NCBI RefSeq assembly: GCF_024171895.1
Contig: NZ_JAMTCQ010000011.1
Coordinates: 62,001-126,000, forward strand
Direction: 5' to 3'
Length of the DNA: 64,000 bases
From: Prauserella halophila
GTDB lineage: Bacteria; Actinomycetota; Actinomycetes; Mycobacteriales; Pseudonocardiaceae
Below, one piece after another: positions 5,675-51,669 of this stretch (the first letter of the stretch is position 1; each line of letters begins with the position of its first letter). Both the position numbers and the translations under genes were made by a program. The notes below the pieces were generated by a model. That model worked only from the letters and a program-made list of their open reading frames with translations, made no database searches and was not told the origin of the DNA.

Positions 5675-5690
5675 GTATAACGACCTATAC
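5675..5690. promoter_or_regulatory. GTATA-N6-TATAC palindrome, copy 1
   Basis: GTATAACGACCTATAC is identical to the copy at 50246. It lies in the convergent gap between the MerR gene and the minus-strand membrane-anchored gene, where no start codon is nearby, so a simple operator role does not explain it. Confidence 0.6.
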
Positions 5691-31612: not shown

Positions 31613-31628
31613 GTATAACGGTTTATAC
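31613..31628. promoter_or_regulatory. GTATA-N6-TATAC palindrome, copy 2
   Basis: GTATAACGGTTTATAC differs from the consensus copy only in the centre. It lies between the convergent ends of hemH and the minus-strand unknown gene. Confidence 0.55.
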
Positions 31629-50245: not shown

Positions 50246-50261
50246 GTATAACGACCTATAC
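50246..50261. promoter_or_regulatory. GTATA-N6-TATAC palindrome, copy 3, at the HTH-like gene promoter
   Basis: GTATAACGACCTATAC, identical to copy 1, ends ten bases before the ATG at 50272. There is no ribosome-binding site between them. The TATAAC or CTATAC part may be the -10 itself, so a bound protein would block transcription. Confidence 0.65.
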
Positions 50262-50271
50262 GATCGGGCTC

Positions 50272-50670
50272 ATGAGTGAGGACATCCCACCCGTCGGCCC
50301 ACCGGATTCGACCGCCGAAGCAGGGGAGGGGAGTACGCCGGCCCCGGTCACCGCCGCGGCGGTGCTGGCATGGCTCGAGGAGACCGCTGCGGCGGTGGCG
50401 GCAGGCGAACTCGACGCCGAGGAACTGATCGCGCTGCTCGGCGAGTTGCGGCAGGCGTCGACGGCATGCGCGAACGCGTCCGACTGGACCTTGCTCGCGG
50501 CGCGTGAAGCGGGCGCCAGTCTGCGCGAGATCGCGCCGGTCTTCGGCAAGGGGTACGTGCGGGCGCCTGCGGCGAGGCTGGAGAAGCTGCATCGCGAGGT
50601 GCTGTCGGCCGACCAGTTTCTCGAGCTGATGCGGCGCCGTGCGTCGGGCGCCTCGGAGCCAGCTGTATAA
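50272..50670 (+). CDS. Small HTH-like protein bracketed by GTATA-N6-TATAC sites
   Basis: I do not recognise a named family. The 132-aa acidic protein has a disordered start, a helical region (about 24-70, AAAVLAWLEETAAAVAAGEL then ELIALLGELRQASTAC) and a stretch that looks like a helix-turn-helix (about 70-105: WTLLAAREAGASLREIAPVF, then GKGYVRAPAARLEKLHREVL). A DNA-binding role is an inference. The same palindrome lies over its likely promoter (50246-50261) and its stop codon (50665-50680), so it is a good candidate for the protein that binds it. It stands between mpa and an aldo/keto reductase, a place where M. tuberculosis has other small genes. Confidence 0.7.
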   Translation: MSEDIPPVGPPDSTAEAGEGSTPAPVTAAAVLAWLEETAAAVAAGELDAEELIALLGELRQASTACANASDWTLLAAREAGASLREIAPVFGKGYVRAPAARLEKLHREVLSADQFLELMRRRASGASEPAV

Positions 50671-50680
50671 CGATCTATAC
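50665..50680. promoter_or_regulatory. GTATA-N6-TATAC palindrome, copy 4, overlapping a stop codon
   Basis: GTATAACGATCTATAC extends in both directions to 11-bp arms (CCAGCTGTATA and its complement), the strongest of the four copies. It contains the TAA stop of the HTH-like gene and lies 50 bp upstream of the aldo/keto reductase start. Confidence 0.7.
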
Positions 50681-50717: not shown

Positions 50718-50723
50718 TACCGT
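50718..50723 (+). promoter_or_regulatory. -10 hexamer TACCGT for the aldo/keto reductase (leaderless)
   Basis: TACCGT ends seven bases before the ATG at 50731. The GTATA-N6-TATAC copy at 50665 lies at about -50 to -65 from the predicted transcription start. Confidence 0.55.
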
Positions 50724-50730
50724 GCGCCAT

Positions 50731-51669
50731 ATGGACAACATCGCACGGACAGCGGTGGGCCTCGCTTCGTTGGGGCGGCCCGCCTACATCAACCTCGGCC
50801 GCGACCCGGAACTGCCGGCGGATCGCACCGTCGACGCGATGCGCGAGGCGACGTTCGCCGTACTGGACCGTGCGTACGCGGCGGGTGTCCGCCGGGTCGA
50901 CGCGGCGCGCTCGTACGGCAGGGCCGAAGAGTTCCTCGCCGACTGGCTGACCGCGCGGGGGCATGTCGACGTCACGGTGTCCAGCAAATGGGGATATGCG
51001 TACGTGGGCGAGTGGCGGCTGGACGCAGCCGTGCACGAGGTCAAGGAACACTCGCTCGCGCGGTTCCGGCAGCAGTGGGCCGAGACCCGGGACGCGCTGC
51101 CGGTCGTGCCGGCGCTCTACCAGGTGCATTCGCTGACCCCGGACAGTCCGCTGTTCGACGACCGCGGACTGCAGGCGGCGCTCGGCGAGCTCGTCGATGC
51201 CGGAGTGCGGGTGGGCTTCTCGACGTCCGGGCCGGTGCAGGCCGACACGATCCGGCGCGCACTGGACCTGACCGTCGCCGGCAGGCAGCTGTTCACCGCC
51301 GTGCAGTCGACGTGGAACGTGCTCGAATCGTCGGCCGGTCTGGCGCTCGCCGAGGCGCACAAGGCCGGTGTGCTGGTCCAGCTGAAGGAAACGCTGGCCA
51401 ACGGCAGGCTGGCCGTCGACCCGCCGGAGGTCGTCGCCGACATCGCACGGGCCCACGGCACGACGCCCGACGCGGTGGCGCTCGGGTCCGCCTACGCCGA
51501 GGAGTGGGCCGACGTCGTGCTGGTCGGTCCGGCCGGCGTGGCACAGCTCGACGCGAACCTCGCGGCCGCCAGCCTGCAGCTGAGCGACGACGACCTGGAA
51601 CGACTCGCCGAGCTGCGGGAGAACCCGCAGGAATACTGGGCCCGCCGGTCGCAGCTCGTGTGGGGATGA
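50731..51669 (+). CDS. Aldo/keto reductase
   Basis: The 312-aa protein is an NADPH-dependent aldo/keto reductase of the TIM-barrel family: GVRRVDAARSYGRAEEFLAD (catalytic Asp and Tyr), VTVSSKWGY (catalytic Lys), LYQVHSLTPDS (catalytic His) and the cofactor end VLVGPAGVAQLDANL. The natural carbonyl substrate is unknown. The ATG at 50731 is leaderless; the in-frame GTG at 50722 is part of the promoter. It follows the HTH-like gene and precedes a lipoprotein gene (48 nt). Confidence 0.9.
   Translation: MDNIARTAVGLASLGRPAYINLGRDPELPADRTVDAMREATFAVLDRAYAAGVRRVDAARSYGRAEEFLADWLTARGHVDVTVSSKWGYAYVGEWRLDAAVHEVKEHSLARFRQQWAETRDALPVVPALYQVHSLTPDSPLFDDRGLQAALGELVDAGVRVGFSTSGPVQADTIRRALDLTVAGRQLFTAVQSTWNVLESSAGLALAEAHKAGVLVQLKETLANGRLAVDPPEVVADIARAHGTTPDAVALGSAYAEEWADVVLVGPAGVAQLDANLAAASLQLSDDDLERLAELRENPQEYWARRSQLVWG

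Follow-up and report, generated by a model that had tools for sequence, protein, structure and literature searches.

The window, that is the whole stretch of 64,000 nucleotides that was analysed, comes from the genome of Prauserella halophila (5.05 Mb in 16 contigs; contig C4, positions 62,001–126,000), a member of the Pseudonocardiaceae. It contains a gene for a protein of 132 amino acids that has a copy of the palindrome GTATA-N6-TATAC immediately before its start codon and a second copy over its stop codon (Table 1). A previous description made from the letters of the window, the sequence-only reading, had proposed that this gene encodes a helix-turn-helix-like regulator that binds the palindrome and controls itself, an aldo/keto reductase gene and a lipoprotein gene. 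Here, the distribution, structure and orientation of the palindromic sites were compared across genomes of the family, and the results suggest that the sites and the protein are parts of a replication fork trap placed around dif. In what follows, handles such as G060 and C4 denote genomes and contigs.

Both palindromes were confirmed in the sequence where they had been placed (50246–50261 and 50665–50680), as were the 11-bp arms of the second copy (CCAGCTGTATA and TATACAGCTGG); the 60 sites aligned below do not in general have arms of this length. Two further exact copies in the window, beginning at 5675 and 31613, had been overlooked, and all four copies have the same direction. The number of copies expected in the window by chance was 0.00, with none found in 100 dinucleotide shuffles when up to one mismatch was allowed. 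Eight copies were present in the 5.05 Mb of the genome compared with none of the reversed control pattern. Seven of these lie on C4, a 505-kb contig that contains the replication terminus, and the remaining copy is at C1:34,126. A copy with two mismatches on C2 was excluded from the site set.

Table 1. Position and strand of the proposed terminator gene and of the terminator-like sites in the window
Feature	Position in window	Strand	Remarks
Terminator-like site, GTATAACGACCTATAC	5675–5690	+	convergent genes on both sides
Terminator-like site, GTATAACGGTTTATAC	31613–31628	+	convergent genes on both sides
Terminator-like site 1, GTATAACGACCTATAC	50246–50261	+	ends 10 bases 5' of the ATG (50272) of the binder gene
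One-sided extension of terminator-like site 1, GATCGGGC	directly after site 1, up to 50269	+	
132-aa gene, proposed terminator (site-binding) protein	50272–50670	+	homology, conservation, five-helix model
Terminator-like site 2, GTATAACGATCTATAC	50665–50680	+	overlaps the TAA stop (50668–50670); direction of the gene

A scan in which the host genera were named gave 73 loci for the gene in Prauserella, Amycolatopsis, Saccharomonospora, Qaidamihabitans and Tamaricihabitans, with two loci from metagenome bins that have no genus name. A site was located at the start of the gene in 71 of the 73 loci, in 62 of them at −24 to −26 as counted from the start codon chosen in this analysis, and a copy was found near the stop codon in 36 loci. 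All of these start and stop sites have the direction of the gene itself. Alignment of 60 proteins (the window protein and 59 homologues, comprising 53 of the 73 named proteins and six others) identified 38 invariant residues, 36 of which fall within residues 56–108. The predicted structure is all-helical, with five helices and a mean predicted local distance difference test score (pLDDT) of 85, and in this model the C-terminal part (residues 54–126) is weakly similar to LuxR-type helix-turn-helix domains. A Pfam scan of the window protein and its homologues gave no family above its cut-off. The label 'helix-turn-helix-like' is hence plausible for the helical model and its LuxR-type resemblance, but remains a weak one in that no Pfam family passed the threshold.

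To what extent gene and sites occur together was examined in 249 genomes of the family. Close homologues of the protein (E<1e-50) were present in 63 genomes, sites were present in 63 genomes, and the two sets were identical, with sites in 63/63 genomes that have a close homologue vs 0/186 of the others. The 63 genomes contained 531 sites (3–13 per genome), while the reversed control pattern was found twice in all 249. Sites were thus neither scattered among the family genomes nor found without the protein. A class-wide sample of 394 genomes, searched for the sites and not for the protein, likewise contained no scattered sites, the only two genomes with sites being of the same genus as the window. 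This part of the sequence-only reading, that the small protein is the partner of the palindrome, was supported by the shared set of genomes, and the small gene very probably makes the protein that reads the sites. Its proposed control of its own gene is also probable, given the site at the start of nearly all loci.

The structure of the sites was determined from an alignment of 60 sites with their flanks from seven genomes, in which three of the ten sites of G062 are missing. The consensus comprises the core GTATAAYGnYCTATAC and an extension, GCnSGGC, on one side only. Conservation in the 3' flank was 70 % for G18, 77 % for C19, 77 % for G22, 78 % for G23 and 90 % for C24. A pyrimidine (Y) at position 0 was also conserved outside the core, and beyond it the 5' flank had no conservation comparable to that of the 3' side. 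This indicates that the site is about 25 bp long and polar. Core positions are conserved partly by construction, because the 60 sites were retrieved with the core pattern, and the flanks are free of this effect. When the centre was left free, 74 of 75 copies among the matches listed (which are not the full total) read GTATAAY on one strand, and 70 of the 75 fitted the full pattern. The GTATA and TATAC half-sites stand 11 bp apart. Only 4 of the 60 sites fell in coding-like frames, vs 428 of 600 random positions drawn from two genomes, indicating that sites avoid genes. With a crude gene caller, the commonest setting was between convergent genes (26 of 60), followed by tandem (19) and divergent genes (15).

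With GTATAAYGnYCTATAC taken as the forward reading, the genome of the window has four + sites on C4 at positions no higher than 112,680 and three − sites on C4 at positions from 234,249 upward; the site at C1:34,126 is also on the − strand. A first dif pattern with an N6 spacer had no match in 400 kb. The dif suggested for Frankia (PMC3025954; literature is cited here and below for the passages concerned) was then used as the query and gave one match in the 400 kb of this genome, with four mismatches. The predicted dif is at C4:155,301, about 29 kb past the right end of the window, and since it lies between the two groups of sites with opposite strands, the sites on either side are directed toward it. 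The direction of the C1:34,126 site suggests, as a point of assembly, that on the chromosome the end of C4 is continued by the start of C1.

The same layout was tallied for 38 genomes, including that of the window, which were chosen for assembly quality or listed coordinates and in which dif and sites could be placed. A dif match was present in 38/38 genomes, compared with one match of the reversed control, in G066; the best match per genome was taken, and extra matches with three mismatches in G003, G064, G129 and G280 were left out. Scoring was confined to sites that share a contig with dif. Of these, 308 of 310 were oriented toward dif, although two of the 308 (one each in G131 and G195) rest on an assumed closure of the circle, with each contig treated as ending at its last listed site. 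In all 36 genomes with sites on both sides, dif was located inside the gap in which the direction flips, and the two genomes with sites on only one side of the dif contig (G002 and G061) were consistent with this layout. The median distance from dif was 92 kb and 67 kb for the innermost sites on the two sides and 161 kb for all sites (maximum 2.05 Mb), and the site sets that point at dif extend over about 0.5 to 3.6 Mb of the chromosome. On both chromosome arms it is the 3' extension of the site that faces dif. Several non-palindromic sites around dif therefore point toward it.

Both wrong-way sites belong to a single genome, G273 (C1:3432220 and C1:3478353). About 2 kb from the first of these, the DNA is homologous to DNA of the right arm of G060, and a + site of G273 at 4,848,834 lies in DNA that is homologous, in inverted form, to that at the − site of G060 at 8,961,018. 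These homologies point to a rearrangement across the terminus as the likely cause of the wrong-way sites. The same two sites offer a natural test of whether inverted sites are tolerated.

The antipode of dnaA and the flip in GC skew place the sites at the terminus of replication, across the chromosome from oriC. The dnaA gene was located in 12 of 12 genomes; in ten of these it is on another contig than the sites and so is uninformative for the position of the terminus, leaving two genomes with dnaA on a site-bearing contig. In the complete genome of Amycolatopsis sp. 2-2 (G060; 10.665 Mb), dnaA at 2.75 Mb gives an antipode at 8.08 Mb; the direction flips at 8.120–8.270 Mb, and dif is located at 8.191 Mb. 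For G020 (about 7.0 Mb), the corresponding positions are base 82 for dnaA and 3.25–3.43 Mb for the flip. GC skew in the genome of the window (C4:1–400,000) was positive on the left, mixed at about 140–210 kb and negative beyond, with the cumulative maximum near 210 kb, and in G102 the skew was positive in 11 of 11 samples left of dif and negative in 9 of 9 samples right of it. The dnaA gene of G060 is split over two frames (C1:2749531–2751097), perhaps by a sequencing frameshift.

Inward-pointing polar sites around dif, together with a gene that has such a site at its own start, are taken here as the components of a fork trap. We consider it likely that the palindrome functions as a polar Ter site for which the 132-aa protein is the terminator protein, the two forming a trap around dif in some Pseudonocardiaceae (Prauserella, Amycolatopsis, Saccharomonospora and their kin). 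Binding by the protein would probably involve a dimer placed on the GTATA and TATAC half-sites, and the protein would repress its own gene. Forks coming from oriC would pass the sites inward, and forks leaving the terminus would be arrested on meeting the dif-facing side of a site. Polar arrest and the choice of the blocking side are proposed because this layout is common to the Tus/ter and RTP/ter systems (PMC6549158, PMC10331603, PMC13220808). Inverted Ter sites have been reported to be highly detrimental (PMC5993296), which fits the strict polarity seen here. Some observations temper this evidence. The presence of gene and sites tracks genera, so that both may derive from one old acquisition; the match between the two sets is strong but does not represent 63 independent events. 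GC skew in G060 was weak and noisy: of five samples from the stretch that runs from base 1 to dnaA, where the right arm should give negative values, three were positive. The skew was noisy in part of G273 too.

Two unrelated fork traps, Tus/ter and RTP/ter, are named in the literature (PMC6549158; PMC13220808, 2026), and the passages cited place known traps only in a few groups of gamma-proteobacteria and in one subgroup of the Bacillales (PMC6549158, PMC13220808, PMC7174701). Both tus and rtp are reported to be autoregulated and to have a ter site in their promoters (PMC10331603). In Tus/ter several non-palindromic sites around the terminus aim at dif (PMC6549158), and the present system resembles it in its dif-facing, non-palindromic sites and in the site that stands where the proposed terminator gene begins, the corresponding site of Tus/ter being in the promoter. 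It differs in that Tus/ter is found in Enterobacterales and some other gamma-proteobacteria, whereas the present system belongs to a different phylum, and in that the ter consensus AGNATGTTGTAAYKAA (PMC3317982) is unlike the 60 aligned sites when compared by eye. RTP is a protein of 14.5 kDa (PMC3317982), and the RTP/ter system of Bacillus comprises nine sites that together span about 10 % of the chromosome (PMC13220808). The likeness here consists of a small protein, sites based on inverted repeats, several sites around the terminus and autoregulation at the promoter, which is presumed for the present gene. However, the site consensus is unlike that of B. subtilis (PMC3317982), and the predicted model of the window protein has no strands and hence no visible winged helix, the fold of RTP; fold searches gave no grounds to reject any fold. 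Neither the Tus family (PF05472) nor the RTP family (PF02334; both identifiers from PMC6549158) was among the Pfam matches at E≤1 for the window protein and its 59 homologues, a search of the proteins in which the genomes were not screened for tus or rtp.

The crowding of sites around dif and the small, dedicated, DNA-binding-like protein would also be seen if the protein condensed or held the Ter region without arresting forks. MatP/matS is an organiser of the terminus domain of this kind, in which sites surrounding the terminus are recognised by one small protein, and the present system likewise has sites around the terminus and one small protein proposed to read them. The matS sequence is GTGACRNYGTCAC, a non-polar palindrome, whereas the present sites are polar and have another sequence. 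An organiser without polarity would need neither the single polarity to dif of 308 of 310 sites nor the one-sided extension, each genome has only 3–13 sites, and the Pfam scans of the window protein and its homologues gave no MatP match at E≤1. A MatP-like organiser would leave the polarity unexplained, and we regard it as unlikely.

The view of the sequence-only reading, in which the protein is an ordinary transcription factor that regulates itself and a small regulon, is in keeping with the presence of a site where the gene begins in 71 of 73 loci, with the helix-turn-helix-like model and with the 15 and 19 of 60 sites that lie between divergent and tandem genes. Against this, 26 of the 60 sites are between convergent genes, and the sites as a set aim at dif across about 0.5 to 3.6 Mb. 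The proposed operators of the two further genes also fared poorly. An exact site (only exact copies were counted) was found near the stop codon in just 35 of the 70 loci in which the reductase gene follows directly downstream, so that the reductase stays in place in the other 35 with no such site. No site adjoins the lipoprotein gene, as the window contains only the four copies listed in Table 1. A transcription factor of this kind is accordingly very improbable. Least probable of all is a role of the sites in giving direction to chromosome segregation or to the resolution of dimers, with FtsK-like translocases near dif reading them as a small number of strong guide or stop signals: sites on both arms do point to dif, but known translocase guide sequences (KOPS, SRS) are short and numerous, and the present sites are few (3–13 per genome), about 25 bp long and served by a dedicated gene with a site at its start.

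With a shade less confidence than for the trap itself, we think that the system probably represents a third fork trap, which arose separately from Tus/ter and RTP/ter and would be the first of Actinobacteria. It would consist of a protein family without known relatives and of polar arrest at sites of about 25 bp, GTATAACGnCCTATACnGCnSGGC, around dif, and would occupy a single chromosomal location in Prauserella, Amycolatopsis, Saccharomonospora and their relatives. Among the open-licence papers listed by searches for a fork trap or terminus motif in actinomycetes, none announced one in its title or the opening of its abstract, and neither of the exact site strings was found in the open-licence collection; a description elsewhere is possible. 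Fork-trap mutants have little phenotype, and why few bacteria possess traps is described as an open question (PMC13220808). If the proposal is correct, a third, non-homologous trap in antibiotic producers with large genomes would show that the same layout, with inward polar sites, a small self-controlled protein and dif inside, has evolved again. It would also provide a new system for the one-sided stopping of forks by a bound protein, and precise marks of the terminus for Amycolatopsis and its relatives.

The proposed terminator gene keeps one chromosomal address. An aldo/keto reductase gene (50722–51669 in the window) was located directly 3' of it in 70 of the 73 loci, and mpa was located directly 5' in 32. 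We know of no function that links the aldo/keto reductase to the proposed terminator gene.

Weak homologues of the protein were also detected in the family. Two genomes, G011 (E=3e-10) and G163 (E=1.5e-13), had weak homologues only and no sites by the search pattern, the sole palindrome match in G011 being off-consensus, and G239 had a second, weak match (E=5e-4). The G011 homologue (L024; C10:56835–57170) has 37 % identity and lies just upstream of a frame that we take to encode a DUF3800-type protein. This neighbourhood may hint at the origin of the terminator family.
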